Below, in pieces: positions 4,517 through 10,425 of a stretch of DNA of 19,690 bases. This DNA comes from an uncultured Eubacteriales bacterium. Lineage in GTDB: Bacteria > Bacillota > Clostridia > Christensenellales > Borkfalkiaceae. The stretch lies in the NCBI GenBank assembly GCA_905207385.1, contig CAJLLH010000002.1, positions 1 to 19,690 on the forward strand, read 5' to 3'. Within the stretch, counting starts at the first letter, position 1; each line of letters begins with the position of its first letter. Made by a program: the position numbers and the translations under genes. The notes below the pieces were generated by a model, which saw nothing but the letters and a program-made list of their open reading frames with translations, did not search any database and was not told the DNA's origin.

Positions 4517-4927
4517 CTAATTAAGGCTATCCCCCAACTGCTTCACTTTGTCGGCAAAAATGTAAAACAGATCAATATATTTCTTAACAATTGCGTCACA
4601 ATGCGTTTTCACAATTTCGCAATCATAATCATGAGTAAGTTCATTCCTCACTTTTAGCATTTCCATCCATGCCTCATCAGAAATCAAATTTGCTTTGAAT
4701 GCCTCTCGCAACACTTCCCTTGGGGAACCGGTAACAAAACCTGTTATTGCATAATACTGCACCAAAATATCCTTCATCACTTTCCACGCCAGGTCAAATG
4801 TAATGCTAAACTTAGCACTCGTTCCACTCAGCACAAATGAATCAGAAAAGTCTCTGTTCTTTGCCTCCGATAATGCATCCAGCGAATTACAAAATGATGT
4901 AAACCGGCGATTAAATTTTTCGTCCAT
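4517..4927 (-). CDS. HEPN toxin (HepT / HI0074-like)
   Basis: A 136-residue, mostly helical protein of the HEPN group paired with minimal nucleotidyltransferases. It contains R94-NELT-H99-D-Y101, an intact RX4HXY motif. In studied HepT toxins the Arg and His form the RNase site and the Tyr is the residue AMPylated by the MntA antitoxin. The N-terminal helices with FDLAWKVMKDIL (44-55) and GSPREVLREAF (67-77) are typical of the HI0074 branch. The gene overlaps the upstream nucleotidyltransferase by 17 bp; GGAGG lies 12 bp before the ATG. The motif set looks active. Whether it acts as a growth-arrest toxin or in phage defence here is inferred from the family. Confidence 0.88.
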   Translation of the reverse strand: MDEKFNRRFTSFCNSLDALSEAKNRDFSDSFVLSGTSAKFSITFDLAWKVMKDILVQYYAITGFVTGSPREVLREAFKANLISDEAWMEMLKVRNELTHDYDCEIVKTHCDAIVKKYIDLFYIFADKVKQLGDSLN

Positions 4928-5180
4928 ACTGTCTGATATCCTCCAATAACAACTGATTTTTACAAGTATCCATATTTACCATATCGACGCTGTATAATGT
5001 TGGCAGATTTTCCACTTCTTCGACAAGTGCATCAAAATCTTTGACACCGGTTACTGCAATGTCAATGTCGCTTCGTTCCCTCGCAGTTTCCTTTGCTCTT
5101 GAACCATATAATATAACTTCTTTTGCTCCAAAATCCCGACAAAGATTTGCCGTTTCTCTGATTACCTGCTCTGCTTTCAA
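4911..5180 (-). CDS. MNT-domain nucleotidyltransferase antitoxin (MntA-like)
   Basis: A minimal nucleotidyltransferase that in characterised pairs silences the HEPN toxin by adding AMP groups to its tyrosine. The signature GSRA...ERSDID fits GSX10DXD exactly, with Gly26-Ser27 and metal-binding Asp38 and Asp40 counted from the chosen start. The frame stays open to 5273, but the upstream residues are basic and unlike the family. The TTG at 5180 is preferred: AGGGGA lies five bases before it, a promoter ends just upstream, and the 89-residue product fits the usual size of about 90-110. It is the first gene of the pair and overlaps the toxin gene, as expected for coupled expression. The start choice is moderately sure and the family assignment strong. 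Confidence 0.85.
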   Translation of the reverse strand: MKAEQVIRETANLCRDFGAKEVILYGSRAKETARERSDIDIAVTGVKDFDALVEEVENLPTLYSVDMVNMDTCKNQLLLEDIRQYGRKI

Positions 5181-5202
5181 AAGTATCCCCTGCCTCTTTC
5201 CT

Positions 5203-5231
5203 ATACTAGCATTTTGTGAAGGAACTGGCAA
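5203..5231 (-). promoter_or_regulatory. Candidate promoter of the MNT/HEPN pair
   Basis: On the minus strand TTGCCA (5226-5231) precedes TAGTAT (5203-5208) with a 17 bp spacer. A transcript starting near 5196 would have a leader of about 16 nt holding only the ribosome site and the TTG start at 5180. The -10 is a 4/6 match, so this is a moderate call. Confidence 0.45.
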
Positions 5232-5430
5232 CTTCCTTATCCTCATCCTCTTTTTCTTTTGCCACATCAGCAATCTTTTGATTTAGTGTTCCCAAAGTAT
5301 TCATCTGGGATGCAGATGCTGACAATTTCTTCTGCTCCAGTTTTTCAAGCTCTTCTTGTTTCTTTTTAACGCTGCTGCTCTTTCTGCTTTCTGGCAATCT
5401 CGTTTTTAATATTTATGCTGCGAAGATTTT
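5206..5430 (-). pseudogene. Charged coiled-coil coding remnant at the composition boundary
   Basis: On the minus strand, 5206-5397 is open with a possible TTG start and would encode about 63 residues rich in Lys, Glu and Ser, ending in ...KEVASSFTKC. A neighbouring frame just upstream also reads like a charged helix (NIKNEIARKQKEQQR, then stop). The two could be one gene split by a frameshift near 5360. No convincing start or ribosome site is visible, and the reading frame cannot be followed past about 5430, where composition changes. It looks like the 3' part of a gene cut off at its 5' end. It could also be non-coding. The family is not recognised. Confidence 0.3.
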
Positions 5431-5485
5431 AAACATATTAAATATTTACCGCGTTTAATTTTGCCTTAAATTTTTCGCTATCTTG
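5400..5485. other. AT-rich gap at the left/right composition boundary
   Basis: This stretch is very AT-rich, carries no recognisable gene and separates Lachnospiraceae-like minus-strand genes from the differently composed plus-strand block. The whole interval between the MNT start (5180) and the copA start (5553) holds only a broken remnant, two promoters and this segment. Confidence 0.4.
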
Positions 5486-5514
5486 TTGACAAAAACAAAT
5501 CGTGTAGCTATAAT
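5486..5514 (+). promoter_or_regulatory. Perfect consensus sigma-A promoter of copA
   Basis: TTGACA (5486-5491), a 17 bp spacer and TATAAT (5509-5514) match the vegetative consensus at every position. Transcription should start near 5521, about 32 nt before the copA start. Such a strong core promoter normally implies repression, but no CopY-type box (TACANNTGTA) is visible. Confidence 0.9.
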
Positions 5515-5552
5515 TAAATCATACTAAAAAGGTAGGAATTATAAAAGTTACA

Positions 5553-8045
5553 GTGAACAAAACATACCAGATAACCGGAATGACGTGTTCGGCGTGCTCT
5601 TCGGGCATAGAGCGCGTAGTCGGTAAAATGGAGGGAGTAAACAAAGTCGAAGTAAGCCTTATGGGCAAGTGCATGAGTGTAGACTTCGATGAAAATGCCG
5701 TTTCAGAACAGGCTATATTTGAAGCGGTAAAATCTCTCGGCTACGGAATATATAACGAGGGCGAACAGCCCGCGGGCAAAGAAAAGGCTCAGGATAAGCA
5801 GCTTTTTATAAGGTTTATAATATCGCTGTGCATACTCGTGCCGCTTTTGTACGTTTCCATGGGGCATATGATATCGCTCCCGCTTCCTGAATTTATTGAC
5901 CCCGAATACTATCCGCAGTGGTTTGCGCTTTATCAGTGCATTCTCACGGCTGCGGTTATAGGCGTCAACTATAAATTTTTTACAAGCGGTACAAAAGCGT
6001 TATTCAAAAAAGTGCCGAATATGGATACTTTGGTATCGCTTGGCGCGGGCGTTTCGTTTTTATATTCGCTTGTAATGACCGTACTCATATTCGTCCGCTC
6101 GGGCGAGGCGGTGGCTCACGAATATGCGATGAACCTCTATTTTGAATCGGCTGCCACAATTCTGACGCTTGTAACCGTAGGAAAGTGGCTGGAAGAAAAG
6201 TCCAAGCGCCGCACGGGCACCGAAATTGAAAAGCTTTTGAAGCTTGCGCCCGATAAGGTTACCAAAGAAGTGGGCGGCGAGCAGATTGTTATACCCGTTT
6301 CTCAGGTTGTCGTTGGCGATATACTTGTGGTAAAGCAGGGCGAATATATCCCTGTAGACGGCGTTATAACCGAAGGCAGCTCGTTTGTAGATAAATCTGC
6401 GGTTACGGGCGAAAGTCTTCCCGTTGAAGTAACCGTGGGCGATGCCGTAACTTCGGCGGCGCTCAACAAAAGCGGTGTCATAAAAATTCGCGCGCAGAAA
6501 ATCGGCGCAGATACCACGCTTTCAAAAATTGTCAAAATGGTTCGCGAAGCGGGCGCTTCCAAACCTCCCATACAAAAATTTGCCGATAAGGTTGCGGGCG
6601 TTTTCGTTCCCGTAGTTACGGCGATAGCCTTGATTACTTTTGCCGTATGGTTAATAATAGACGGGGCTTTCGTGCCCGAGCATTGCGTGACTTATGCAAT
6701 AAGCGTGCTGGTCGTATCCTGCCCGTGCGCGCTCGGCCTTGCAACGCCCGTCGCAATTATGACGTCAACCGGCAAGGCGGCTTCGCTGGGAATTTTATAT
6801 AAAGATGCCGAAAGTCTGCAAAAAGTCTGCGACGTGAACGCCGTGCTTCTTGATAAAACGGCTACGCTTACTGAGGGCAAGCCTAAGGTAACCGATGTGC
6901 TTACCTTCGGTGTTTCGCGCGAAAAAGCGCTTGAAATTGCGGGCGGTATAGAAAAAAATTCCAATCATCCGCTTGCAAAGTGCATTTCCGATTATGCCGC
7001 TTCGGCTGCCGCTACACAGTCCTTCAATTATATTGTGGGCAAGGGCGCAGAAGCGACAATAGGCGGCGTCAAGTACCTTTTGGGCAACGAAAAGCTTGTT
7101 TCTGCCGTTAAATTAAGCGCGGAGGTCAGGCGCGCCGCGCTCAGCCTTTCAAAGCAGGGAAAGACGGTCGTTTACCTTGCGGACGAAAGCAAAGTCATAG
7201 CGCTTATAGCTGTTGCGGATACCCTTAAAGATGGCAGCAAAGAGGCTGTCGAACTTCTGAAAGACAGAAAAGTGCGCGTCGCTATGCTTACGGGCGATGA
7301 GGAGAATACGGCAAAAGCCATTGCCGACAGCGTAGGCATTGAAGACTTCATGTCTGAGGTTATGCCCGAAGACAAACTTCGCGCCGTAACGAACCTTCAG
7401 CAGGTTGGCGGATTTGTGGCAATGGTTGGCGACGGCATAAACGATTCGCCCGCGCTCAAGCAGGCTGACGTCGGTATAGCTATGGGCAGCGGAACTGACG
7501 TCGCAATCGATTCCGCCGACGTGGTTCTCGTAAGCGAGGACCTTCGCACGCTTGACGATATGTTCGAGCTTTCGCGCGCCACCGTGCGCAATATAAAGGA
7601 AAACCTTTTCTGGGCGTTTATTTACAATGTGATAATGATACCCGTAGCGGCGGGCGTGTTTGCGTGGGCAAACTTTACGTTCAATCCGATGATTGCGGCG
7701 GCGTGCATGTGCTTAAGTTCGCTGTTCGTGGTATTCAACGCGCTGAGACTGCTCAGGTTCAGAAATAAAAGGAATAAAAGACTTGCCGTGCCTGAAAACA
7801 ATCAAGAGGACAAGGCGGAGGAAGGTATTATGAAAACTATAGTAAATATAGACGGCATGTGCTGCGAACACTGCGCAAAGCGCGTAGAAAATGCTCTTTC
7901 TGCGGTCAGCGGAGTAGTCAGCGCAGACGTAAAACTTAAAAAGAACCTTGCAGTTGTGCGCAGCCGCGAACGCATTTCCGAAGAGGAAATCAAAAAGGTT
8001 GTTACCGATGCCGGTTATACCGTAACAAGCATTGAAGTCAAATGA
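5553..8045 (+). CDS. copA: Copper-exporting P1B-type ATPase with fused C-terminal CopZ-like domain
   Basis: An 830-residue membrane pump expected to export Cu(I) using ATP. In order: N-terminal heavy-metal domain with GMTCSAC (9-15), eight membrane helices expected, actuator TGES (285-288), CPC in helix 6 (390-392), phosphorylation site Asp434, HP (472-473), TGD (580-582), GDGIND (626-631), and the Cu(I) signatures YN (691-692) and MxxSS (719-723). After a charged linker comes a second metal-binding domain with GMCCEHC (768-774), normally a separate CopZ protein. The phosphorylation loop reads DKTATLT, not DKTGTLT. The GTG start matches the family N-terminus; its only ribosome-site candidate (GGTAGGA) is about 15 bases away, longer than optimal. 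An ArsR-family gene follows. Family certain; copper specificity very likely from the helix signatures. Confidence 0.95.
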   Translation: MNKTYQITGMTCSACSSGIERVVGKMEGVNKVEVSLMGKCMSVDFDENAVSEQAIFEAVKSLGYGIYNEGEQPAGKEKAQDKQLFIRFIISLCILVPLLYVSMGHMISLPLPEFIDPEYYPQWFALYQCILTAAVIGVNYKFFTSGTKALFKKVPNMDTLVSLGAGVSFLYSLVMTVLIFVRSGEAVAHEYAMNLYFESAATILTLVTVGKWLEEKSKRRTGTEIEKLLKLAPDKVTKEVGGEQIVIPVSQVVVGDILVVKQGEYIPVDGVITEGSSFVDKSAVTGESLPVEVTVGDAVTSAALNKSGVIKIRAQKIGADTTLSKIVKMVREAGASKPPIQKFADKVAGVFVPVVTAIALITFAVWLIIDGAFVPEHCVTYAISVLVVSCPCALGLATPVAIMTSTGKAASLGILYKDAESLQKVCDVNAVLLDKTATLTEGKPKVTDVLTFGVSREKALEIAGGIEKNSNHPLAKCISDYAASAAATQSFNYIVGKGAEATIGGVKYLLGNEKLVSAVKLSAEVRRAALSLSKQGKTVVYLADESKVIALIAVADTLKDGSKEAVELLKDRKVRVAMLTGDEENTAKAIADSVGIEDFMSEVMPEDKLRAVTNLQQVGGFVAMVGDGINDSPALKQADVGIAMGSGTDVAIDSADVVLVSEDLRTLDDMFELSRATVRNIKENLFWAFIYNVIMIPVAAGVFAWANFTFNPMIAAACMCLSSLFVVFNALRLLRFRNKRNKRLAVPENNQEDKAEEGIMKTIVNIDGMCCEHCAKRVENALSAVSGVVSADVKLKKNLAVVRSRERISEEEIKKVVTDAGYTVTSIEVK
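7817..8045 (+). other. Internal ribosome site and start inside copA for a possible free CopZ-like chaperone
   Basis: GGAGGAAGG (7817-7825) precedes an in-frame ATG at 7830 with eight bases between GGAGG and the ATG. Initiation here would give a 71-residue protein consisting exactly of the C-terminal metal-binding domain (MKTIVNIDGMCCEHC...), the size of CopZ copper chaperones. The site is far better than the ribosome site of copA itself. The signals are visible in the sequence; use in the cell is inferred. Confidence 0.55.
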
Positions 8046-8087
8046 CAAAGTTATATAATTTATGACTTAATGCGCCAATAATACATT

Positions 8088-8117
8088 TTGACATATCTGC
8101 ATACGAGGCATTATAAT
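8088..8117 (+). promoter_or_regulatory. Promoter of the ArsR-family gene
   Basis: TTGACA (8088-8093) and TATAAT (8112-8117) with an 18 bp spacer. The -10 lies in a 10 bp palindrome TATAATTATA (8112-8121), a possible but unproven repressor half of the site. Transcription would start near 8124. Confidence 0.75.
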
Positions 8118-8144
8118 TATATCAAAGATTATCGGAGGGCGCGT

Positions 8145-8495
8145 ATGCAGGATTTGGTGCAGGATACCATGCTTCTTGACAGACGCACAAAAGAACTTAT
8201 AAAGGAATATGTGCCCGAAGGCGAGGTGCTCAGCAGCATAGTGTGCTTTTTTTCGGTATTTGCCGACAGCACGCGCGTGCGTATGCTTTCTGCGCTGGCC
8301 ATTTCGGAAATGTGTGTAACCGATTTGTCGCGGGTGCTGGAAATTAATCAGACGACTGTATCGCATCAGCTGAGGCTTTTAAAAAACCTCGGCATAGTAA
8401 AATGCGAGCGGCACGGCAAGATTATATTTTACAGTCTTGTTAACGACACCGTGAACGACGTCATGCTCAAAGGCGTTGAGTTTTTAGGTTGCTGA
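8145..8495 (+). CDS. ArsR/SmtB-family metal-responsive repressor
   Basis: A 116-residue winged-helix repressor. FADSTRVRMLSAL (39-51) and the recognition region NQTTVSHQLRLLKNLGIV (68-85) followed by the wing KCERHGKIIFYSL are classic for this family. The frame extends upstream to an ATG at 8088, but that ATG overlaps the -35 box; CGGAGGG six bases before the ATG at 8145 fixes the start. The alpha-3 metal motif is EMCVTD, with one cysteine (Cys57) instead of the CxC of ArsR/CadC proteins. The alpha-5 zinc ligands (DxH...H) of SmtB/CzrA are absent. Cys34, Cys57, Cys87 and C-terminal Cys116 are candidate ligands. Its position 99 bp after copA suggests copper sensing, but that is only inferred. 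It has its own promoter and a terminator. Confidence 0.9.
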   Translation: MQDLVQDTMLLDRRTKELIKEYVPEGEVLSSIVCFFSVFADSTRVRMLSALAISEMCVTDLSRVLEINQTTVSHQLRLLKNLGIVKCERHGKIIFYSLVNDTVNDVMLKGVEFLGC

Positions 8496-8500
8496 AAAGT

Positions 8501-8527
8501 GCGGGTATAAAAACCCGCGCTTTTTTT
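8501..8527 (+). terminator. Intrinsic terminator after the ArsR-family gene
   Basis: GCGGGT (8501-8506) pairs with ACCCGC (8513-8518) around a six-base A-rich loop, followed by GC and seven T residues. It cleanly separates the copA/arsR unit from uvrC. Confidence 0.9.
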
Positions 8528-8548
8528 ATGCGCATTAAGGCATTAATA

Positions 8549-8578
8549 TTGCAAATATGCCCGCCGTTGTGCTATAAT
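8549..8578 (+). promoter_or_regulatory. Promoter of the uvrC operon
   Basis: TTGCAA (8549-8554) and TATAAT (8573-8578) with an 18 bp spacer; transcription would begin near 8585. The word AATCAAAG follows the -10 directly and recurs downstream of the tex -10. No SOS (LexA) box is evident. Confidence 0.7.
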
Positions 8579-8607
8579 AATCAAAGAATACTTTCGGTTA
8601 TTTTTTT

Positions 8608-10425
8608 ATGGATATTATAAGGGAAAAACTCAGGCTTCTGCCGGATAATCCGGGCGTTTATATAATGCTGGACAAGTACTCCAACATAATATACGTCGGC
8701 AAGGCGCGCGTGCTCAAAAACAGGGTGCGGCAATATTTTCATTCCACGCCTAAGCCCGATAAAGTTATGCGCATGGTGGAAAATATAGCCGATTTCAACT
8801 ATATCATCACCAAAACTGAGCGCGACGCGCTTGCGCTTGAAAATAACCTTATCAAAAAATATAAGCCGAAGTACAACATACTTTTAAAAGACGACAAAAC
8901 TTACCCTTATATAAAAGTTGACCTGCACGACGATTTTCCTGCCTTTTATGTTACCAGAAAGGTCAAAAAGGACGGCGCGCGCTATTACGGTCCGTATATG
9001 GGCGGCGTCAGCTATAAAGACATACTTGAAATAATTCAGCTTACGTTTCAGGTCAGGCTGTGCCATACAGCCATAGGCGAAAAGCCTAAGCGCGAATGCC
9101 TCAATTACCACATAGGCAGGTGTCTTGCCCCGTGTGCGCATAAGTGCACTAAAGCAGATTACGCCGCTTGCGTAAAAAAAGCTGTAAACTTCCTTGAAGG
9201 CAACTATAAGGACGCCGAAGCGCTGCTAAAGGAAAAAATGATGTCTGCCGCCGCGGGCGAAAATTTTGAACTTGCTCTCGATTACCGCAACAAGATTGAA
9301 ATGCTGTCCAAACTTGAGGCGCGCAGAATAACTTCGCTTTCAAACTTCCTCGACGCAGACATTATTGCGTATACAACAAACAATCTGTATTCCGCCATAA
9401 ACGTTCTCATAACGCGTAAGGGCGTAATGCAGGGCGGAACGAGCTACGCTCTGGAGGACGCTAACGCCTCCGACGCGGAAGCGCTTTCACAGTTTATTTC
9501 GCAGTATTATGCGGACAGGCTGCCGCCTTCGGAAATTATAACCGAAAGCTGCCTTGAGGACGAGAAGGAGCTTTTAGAGGCGTTCTTCAAAGAAAAATAC
9601 GAAAAATCTGTTAAAATAACGTTTGCCAAGCAGGGCGTAAAGGCTCAGCTTTTGCAGATGGCGCAGGAAAACGCGCGCGAATACCTTGAAAAATCGATAG
9701 ATAAAATAAGGCACAAAGACGATATGACCGTCAACGCCTGCAAGCGCCTCCAGAGCCTTCTTTCGCTTGAAGCTTATCCCCGACGCATGGAGTGTTACGA
9801 TATATCCAACGTCAGCGGTGTGGATAAGGTGGGCTCTATGGTCGTATTTGTAGACGGCGAGGCGGAGCGCAGCAGTTACAGAAGGTTCCGCATAAAGACG
9901 GTGGAAGGCGCAAACGACTTTGCGTCTTTGCAGGAAGTTTTAACGCGCAGACTTTCAAAGTTGGGAACGCCCGAAGAAGAGCGCTTCCCCAAGCCCGACC
10001 TTATAATAATCGACGGCGGCAAGGGACAGCTTTCCGCAGTTAAAAGCATTTTCGACGATATGGGCGTAAGCGGAATAGAGCTTATTTCGCTTGCAAAGCG
10101 CGAGGAGGAAGTTTTTACCTGCAACAGCGAAGAAAGCGTAAAAATAGACCACAGGGATTTTGCGCTTAAAATGTTGCAGAGAATAAGGGACGAGGCGCAC
10201 CGTTTTGCCATAACCTATTTCCGCAATCTTCATTCAAAGCGCAACCTTGAAAGCGTGCTTTCGGAAATAGACGGCGTGGGCAAAAAGAAGCGTATGGCGC
10301 TTATGGAAAAGTTCGGCACGATAGATAAAATCATGAGCGCGAGCGAAAAGGAACTTGCCGAAACGGAAGGCATAGGCCCTGCGCTTGCAAAAAACATCAA
10401 AGAATATTTTGAAGAGAAGTTATGA
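8608..10425 (+). CDS. uvrC: UvrABC system protein C (excinuclease subunit)
   Basis: UvrC makes both incisions around bulky DNA lesions after UvrA/UvrB recognition. The 605-residue protein has a GIY-YIG nuclease domain at the N-terminus (GVYIM 16-20, YVGKA 29-33), a zinc/cysteine region around CLNYHIGRCLAPC, and a UVR motif for UvrB binding near 200-235. The RNase H-like 5'-incision domain has Asp398 in ECYDISNVSG, and tandem helix-hairpin-helix motifs lie at about 551-600 (IDGVGKKKR, EGIGPALAK). Length is normal for the family. No Shine-Dalgarno sequence is visible in the short leader before the ATG (only T-rich sequence), so initiation may be weak or leaderless-like. It overlaps the next gene by four bases (ATGA), which implies coupling. 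Confidence 0.97.
   Translation: MDIIREKLRLLPDNPGVYIMLDKYSNIIYVGKARVLKNRVRQYFHSTPKPDKVMRMVENIADFNYIITKTERDALALENNLIKKYKPKYNILLKDDKTYPYIKVDLHDDFPAFYVTRKVKKDGARYYGPYMGGVSYKDILEIIQLTFQVRLCHTAIGEKPKRECLNYHIGRCLAPCAHKCTKADYAACVKKAVNFLEGNYKDAEALLKEKMMSAAAGENFELALDYRNKIEMLSKLEARRITSLSNFLDADIIAYTTNNLYSAINVLITRKGVMQGGTSYALEDANASDAEALSQFISQYYADRLPPSEIITESCLEDEKELLEAFFKEKYEKSVKITFAKQGVKAQLLQMAQENAREYLEKSIDKIRHKDDMTVNACKRLQSLLSLEAYPRRMECYDISNVSGVDKVGSMVVFVDGEAERSSYRRFRIKTVEGANDFASLQEVLTRRLSKLGTPEEERFPKPDLIIIDGGKGQLSAVKSIFDDMGVSGIELISLAKREEEVFTCNSEESVKIDHRDFALKMLQRIRDEAHRFAITYFRNLHSKRNLESVLSEIDGVGKKKRMALMEKFGTIDKIMSASEKELAETEGIGPALAKNIKEYFEEKL

Follow-up and report, generated by a model that had tools for sequence, protein, structure and literature searches.

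A conserved in-frame start site within clostridial copA genes points to an embedded CopZ-like copper chaperone

The copA locus and its embedded HMA frame

The window, by which we mean the whole 19,690-nucleotide stretch of DNA from an uncultured Eubacteriales bacterium that was analysed, carries a copper ATPase gene with a second potential translation start close to its 3' end. The features of this region are as follows.

5486..5514, + strand: sigma-70 type promoter-like site of copA, TTGACA-17-TATAAT, 12 of 12 consensus positions (scan of 5300-8700)
5553..8045, + strand: copA, P1B copper ATPase of 830 residues with an HMA domain at the N- and at the C-terminus, GTG start, weak Shine-Dalgarno (SD) site
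7758..7829, + strand: linker between the last membrane helix and the C-terminal HMA domain, boundary approximate; variable in relatives except for the SD region
7817..7825, + strand: internal SD site GGAGGAAGG, -9.5 kcal/mol, conserved in position in relatives
7830..7832, + strand: internal start codon ATG (Met760); ATG in 53 and TTG in 1 of the 54 close relatives, window included
7830..8045, + strand: CopZ-like chaperone frame embedded in copA, 71 residues, complete HMA domain with GMCCEHC
8148..8495, + strand: ArsR/SmtB-type regulator, directly downstream of copA, presumably a copper sensor

By its match to TIGR01511 (copper-translocating P-type ATPase; 574.7 bits in a profile search, cut-off 397) the copA product is classified as a copper-translocating P1B ATPase (CopA), and transport of Cu(I) is predicted. 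The nearest relatives found for the gene come from uncultured Clostridia and Candidatus Coproplasma, and it matches the related locus L001 at 91% over the ATPase core. SD energies were calculated with RNAduplex against CACCUCCUUU, which may not match the host's own 16S end, and a threshold of -5 kcal/mol was our choice. An earlier note on this DNA, made from the letters and their translations, had described the pump start as a GTG with a poorly spaced GGTAGGA; this motif was confirmed at 5531-5537, 15 nt upstream of the GTG, and the SD energy of this start is -3.3 kcal/mol.

The consensus scan of 5300-8700 gave weaker + strand promoter matches within copA at 6630 and 6931 and more after 8031, and listed no + strand site between 6960 and 8031 that could serve as a separate chaperone promoter. 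The pump and the putative chaperone would therefore probably share one mRNA. The regulator gene has its own perfect TTGACA-18-TATAAT promoter-like site (region 8088-8495), and a homolog lies directly 3' of copA in 112 of the 231 loci with enough flank. The -10 boxes of the copA and regulator promoters lie in similar AT-rich stretches, TATAATTAAATCATA and TATAATTATATCAAAG, which may be a candidate operator. Upstream of copA, the minus strand at 4517-5273 harbors two adjacent small genes, for a nucleotidyltransferase domain protein (PF18765, PF01909) and a nucleotidyltransferase substrate-binding-like protein (PF08780), which we take to resemble an MNT/HEPN-type toxin-antitoxin arrangement.

The earlier note had also proposed that an ATG near the 3' end of copA starts a separate copper chaperone, and its description of the site was correct in every point checked. 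ATG 7830 is in frame as codon 760 of the 830-codon open reading frame, GGAGGAAGG precedes it with 8 nt between GGAGG and ATG, and the 71-residue product, beginning MKTIVNIDG, is a complete HMA domain (PF00403 positions 2-62 of 62, 54.1 bits, cut-off 24.8), similar in sequence to HMA domains in the solved structures of copper ATPases and of CopZ (6ff2, E 2e-10). Taken alone, the 71 residues score below the curated CopZ cut-offs of NCBIfam (NF033794, 65.7/95; NF047957, 60.8/85; NF033795, 56.4/91; TIGR00003, 50.8/62) and the product is therefore named CopZ-like here, not CopZ.

SD energies as strong as the -9.5 kcal/mol of this site are found at 1.1% of 3,390 internal ATGs in frames of at least 250 codons from the window and 53 related loci. 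When the amino acids are held fixed and the codons redrawn from each gene's own usage, the SD site of the window gene alone is not significant (p 0.20) because the acidic linker residues alone already favour an SD; the linker amino acids by themselves give a mean of -7.1. RNA structure at the internal site of the window is unremarkable (z -0.91). As the single-gene test is not significant, the case rests on the relatives.

Conservation of the start and its ribosome site in relatives

The close-relative search found 80 related loci, and 54 genes, the window included, have a readable fused C-terminal HMA domain. The wider search covered 201 genomes of the family of genome G002 and 248 of its order, with copA read from part of the matches listed. 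Our first set consists of the window, 63 loci from the close-relative search and 123 from the family search (187 loci), the order set of 60 loci, and the class-level sample of 47 copA regions read from 196 genomes searched, 19 of these 47 having been chosen for a match that extended into the C-terminal domain. Two pairs in the class sample have near-identical linkers (L335/L336 and L359/L362), while the 230 fused genes of the other two sets have 229 different 27-base upstream stretches. Left out were L127 (its contig is shared with L030), L129, L131, L132, L254-L256, L317 and L318 (the same places as other loci), L081-L126 (places of loci already included) and L063-L069 and L071-L080 (other lineages or cut genes, eight of which served as tree outgroup). 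Contig ends cut L048, L051, L053, L212 and L288, and L070 is broken into two frames and absent from the tree.

Among the close relatives the one gene with TTG at the Met760 codon retains a strong SD, and the SD is at or below -5 at 98% of these internal sites; the corresponding shares are 17.7% for the 3,390 internal ATGs and 51.6% for 124 gene starts judged unambiguous by our rule. The anti-SD pairing profile of the relatives has one sharp peak 7-9 nt 5' of the start, although the linkers vary in sequence and length. In the close relatives its minimum, a mean of -7.5 kcal/mol, falls on a nine-base stretch that ends 8 nt 5' of the start, and the values from 38 to 15 nt 5' of the start are +0.1 to +0.9. 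Weaker troughs lie further upstream (about -2) and within the domain (-4.5 at +27); the latter is independent of the Met and is also present in seven distant contrast genes, which were treated as start-less and include L061, a gene with an ATG 9 codons before the CxxC.

Start codons were first defined as lying 8-15 codons 5' of the CxxC. By this definition 147 of the 174 fused genes in the first set have a start, with an SD at or below -5 in 146/147, and the 27 fused genes with no start at the usual place have such an SD in 2. The order set contains 56 fused genes, 46 with a start (SD in 43) and 10 without (SD in 2), and in 4 of its loci the C-terminal HMA domain is missing from the frame. An anti-SD peak further upstream in the start-less group led to a wider start search, over 8-39 codons. 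It revealed an ATG 16-21 codons before the CxxC in 18 of the 37 fused genes of the two sets that lack the usual start. There are 19 such genes in all, L280 being the nineteenth, each shifted ATG having its own SD of -8.5 or better. The GTG codons of L280 and L282 were rejected as starts for want of an SD; L280 has the shifted ATG and L282 has none. Shifted starts extend the small protein N-terminally, for example with MFFKKK or MCFKKE, and such extensions are seen at L232, L237, L238, L243, L248, L259, L261, L274, L276, L286 and L287.

The internal starts are thus ATG, GTG or TTG codons 9-21 codons 5' of the CxxC, and the SD shifts along with the start. A start with an SD is present in the linker of 208/230 fused genes when the first and order sets are combined (ATG in 205/208; L044, with a weak ATG and an unrelated distant GTG, was not counted) and of 43/43 in the class sample (ATG 42, GTG 1), which amounts to 251 of 273 fused copA genes in a count uncorrected for kinship. 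Non-ATG starts with a strong SD are the TTG of L001 and the GTG of L137, L291 and L345. The commensal Subdoligranulum variabile (L368) likewise has a fused copA that contains the internal site. By comparison, 13% of 4,600 random 32-codon windows of the same genes hold an ATG with such an SD, a value that reaches 35% per window in the class sample when GTG and TTG are also counted.

The earlier note had weighed fused relatives that lack both the site and the Met against its own proposal, and 22 of the 273 do not have a start with an SD. Twelve of these 22 (L057-L060, L062, L201, L203, L213 and L215-L218) fall in one 20-row clade, which also includes 7 start-bearing rows, and no separate small HMA frame was found in the 12 genomes behind them. 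For a contrast corrected for kinship a tree was built on the ATPase core and independent pairs were compared, using the narrower start definition, which misses the shifted ATGs. Seven of 8 pairs in the first set point in the expected direction (median p 0.07). With the order set added there are 12 pairs, of which 8 are as expected, 1 is opposite and 3 are equal, giving a median p of 0.039 (range 0.008-0.23; 0.02 with an SD limit of -6). The kinship-corrected contrast thus lends modest support to a link between start and SD.

Ribosome site, protein constraint and other explanations

Where the boundary could be set, linker length ranges from 12 to 108 codons, with a median of 23. Across the 147 start-bearing genes of the first set, 59 different tripeptides are encoded beneath the SD core, which occurs in all three codon phases; the residues under the SD are mostly E, D, K and G. 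The SD is stronger than the synonymous mean in 182 of 193 genes (-8.83 vs -5.80), the observed sum lying outside all 1,000 simulations, and in 40 of 43 genes of the class sample (-9.41 vs -5.55), while 764 control ATGs of the same genes show no SD excess (-2.38 vs -2.60). Gene by gene, p falls below 0.05 in 0/54 close relatives and the pooled results alone speak. Of 21 Met columns other than Met760 with a Met in at least 20 genes, 20 have an SD at or below -5 in at most 27% of cases. The remaining column, Met624, reaches 87% within a conserved protein stretch, presumably for protein reasons, so an SD-like signal can arise from protein constraint alone. The least RNA structure is found at the start, with -1.5 to -1.7 kcal/mol per 40 nt as compared to about -8 to -10 in the flanks, and this minimum coincides with the lowest GC content, 31%; in genes lacking the usual start the same position shows -3.9. 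These comparisons indicate that SD and start are conserved together, more than the protein sequence by itself would demand, with the kinship-corrected contrast being modest.

The Met624 case and the dominance of E, D, K and G under the SD are what would be expected if acidic residues followed by a Met ahead of the HMA domain served the folding or regulation of the pump. We consider this very improbable, given that the SD spans so many tripeptides and every phase, that synonymous codons lean towards SD pairing and that the Met itself ranges from 9 to 21 codons before the CxxC with the SD following it. An SD-like stretch might instead pause elongating ribosomes, so that the membrane domain is inserted before the C-terminal domain is made and no initiation occurs. 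The site presumably lies shortly past the last membrane helix, which would suit such a role. A pause, however, needs no start codon at fixed spacing, and ATG is replaced by GTG and TTG. Moreover, 14 of the 16 fused genes with no linker ATG also lack an SD at or below -5 at the usual place (the exceptions are L058, -5.8, and L315, -5.6), and there is hardly any chance that pausing is the explanation.

Slightly more room, yet still little, is left for the site being an unused relic of a copA-copZ fusion, or a product of chance, in which case the fused domain would be only a tethered metal-binding domain. Fusion itself is plausible, since on enterococcal plasmids the two genes are separate and adjacent; some relatives also have a fused domain that is preceded by no start and in most cases by no SD, and the SD of a single gene is not beyond codon expectation. 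A relic should decay, however, and the SD peak persists although the linkers differ throughout; the pooled SD exceeds codon expectation, and start and SD have shifted together. The earlier note had offered internal initiation or a recent fusion that kept the old ribosome site. Internal initiation of the chaperone is supported by the relatives, while a recent fusion fits badly: the fused form with the site is spread over the samples from family, order and class, with identity to the window as low as 42% among the order-level matches listed, and linkers differ throughout. The note had further suggested looking for relatives with a stop codon in the linker, and these, or relatives with an adjacent separate copZ, turned out to be few: six loci with a pump that lacks the C-terminal domain and an adjacent copZ (L236, L281, L301, L309, L326 and L334) and the enterococcal plasmids.

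From the comparisons above we conclude that internal in-frame initiation very probably makes a CopZ-like chaperone from copA mRNA.

Separate copZ genes and the two predicted products of copA

If the internal start replaces copZ, separate copZ genes should complement it, and this pattern was not found. Other HMA frames of at most 140 codons are present in 22 of 47 internal-start genomes vs 2 of 14 fused start-less genomes, and in 7 of 9 genomes whose pump read here lacks the C-terminal domain; the other 25 of the 47 internal-start genomes have none. A further small set gave 7/8 with the internal start, 4/5 fused without it and 4/4 with a pump lacking the C-terminal domain. These frames were tallied by eye in assemblies that may be incomplete, which makes the absences soft. 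L242 and L314 are fused, start-less and adjoin a copZ, and no copZ was seen next door to the pumps lacking the C-terminal domain at L193, L204, L206, L208, L209, L228, L244, L249, L329 and L330. Five loci combine the fused domain and its Met with a separate copZ behind copA, and their internal SD energies are -3.5 (L044), -7.2 (L010), -7.4 (L012), -8.8 (L043) and -11.6 (L046). With L001-L009 at -9.5 to -12.3, L010 and L012 are weaker, and L043 and L046 were not counted as weakened. Database proteins of 71 residues were rejected as evidence of split genes: of the 120 in the list, 5 match the fused C-termini of sampled loci exactly and 9 match fused proteins exactly, and many come from short contigs.

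In E. coli, according to two papers, -1 frameshifting on copA yields a 70-residue putative copper chaperone, CopA(Z) (PMC5009743, PMC9548414). This is the same economy that we propose here, one gene for a pump and a putative chaperone of about 70 residues. The E. coli short product is encoded by the 5' portion of copA and arises through frameshifting, whereas in the window the C-terminal domain would be released by an in-frame internal start. An E. coli-type frameshift was discarded for the window copA, which has no CCCAAAG and reaches its first zero-frame X XXY YYZ heptamer only at codon 467, a long way past the N-terminal domain. The suggestion of the earlier note that an E. coli-like outcome is reached at the opposite end of the gene by another mechanism gains from the comparative evidence, which favours the in-frame start. 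Alternative in-frame starts that give N-terminal proteoform pairs from one gene are named for clpB, infB, arcB and others in PMC11005335; these encode other proteins, whereas the short form from copA would act as a metallochaperone in its own right for the long form. The arrangement also resembles adjacent copA-copZ genes (enterococcal tcrZ; the HMA gene behind copA in E. faecalis), in which the pump gene precedes an HMA gene that has a start of its own. On two enterococcal plasmids the genes are set apart by a stop codon, with gaps of 84 and 21 nt between them, whereas in the window the frame runs through, and we infer that its C-terminal domain is made tethered and also free. Our search of the open-licence literature found one paper, on frameshifting, and none on an internal or alternative start in copA or copper chaperones, though such papers may exist; the E. 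coli papers appear in the reference list of a copper review (PMC7558416).

In the mechanism proposed for these gut Clostridia one copA mRNA would have two in-frame translation starts. The weak GTG at 5553 would give the 830-residue pump with its HMA tail, and the strong linker SD with ATG 7830 would give this HMA domain on its own, as a free CopZ-like protein of 71 residues that would pick up Cu(I) in the cytosol and pass it on to the pump. Initiation at ATG 7830 is presumed here, as are the stability of the product and its carriage of copper. Across the class Clostridia it is likely, if somewhat less so than for the mechanism itself, that a chaperone gene is commonly hidden in copA behind a movable start with its ribosome site, convergent with E. 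coli CopA(Z), which uses the other end of the gene. In that case, genomes recorded as copZ-negative would possess such a gene after all. If the frame is expressed, annotation misses soluble copper chaperones in many Clostridia, and there is a second, independently evolved route to pump and chaperone from one copA, kept across many Clostridia lineages. An SD and a start that move together inside a reading frame would also be an evolutionary signature for finding other hidden in-frame genes.

The two starts presumably set the ratio of the products, with more chaperone than pump. In 165 of 204 genes the internal SD surpasses the best one around the pump start (medians -8.9 vs -6.5), a comparison that required an internal SD at or below -5, which favours the internal start, and took as pump SD the best one near the N-terminal domain. 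This difference, which in the window is -9.5 vs -3.3, would be compatible with a surplus of chaperone over pump, SD strength being no measure of output. L001 and L005 have the same GTG pump start as the window, but with AGAGG nearby, while the SD of the window (5520-5560) is poorly spaced, and the pump ribosome site of the window may have been weakened relative to these two loci.
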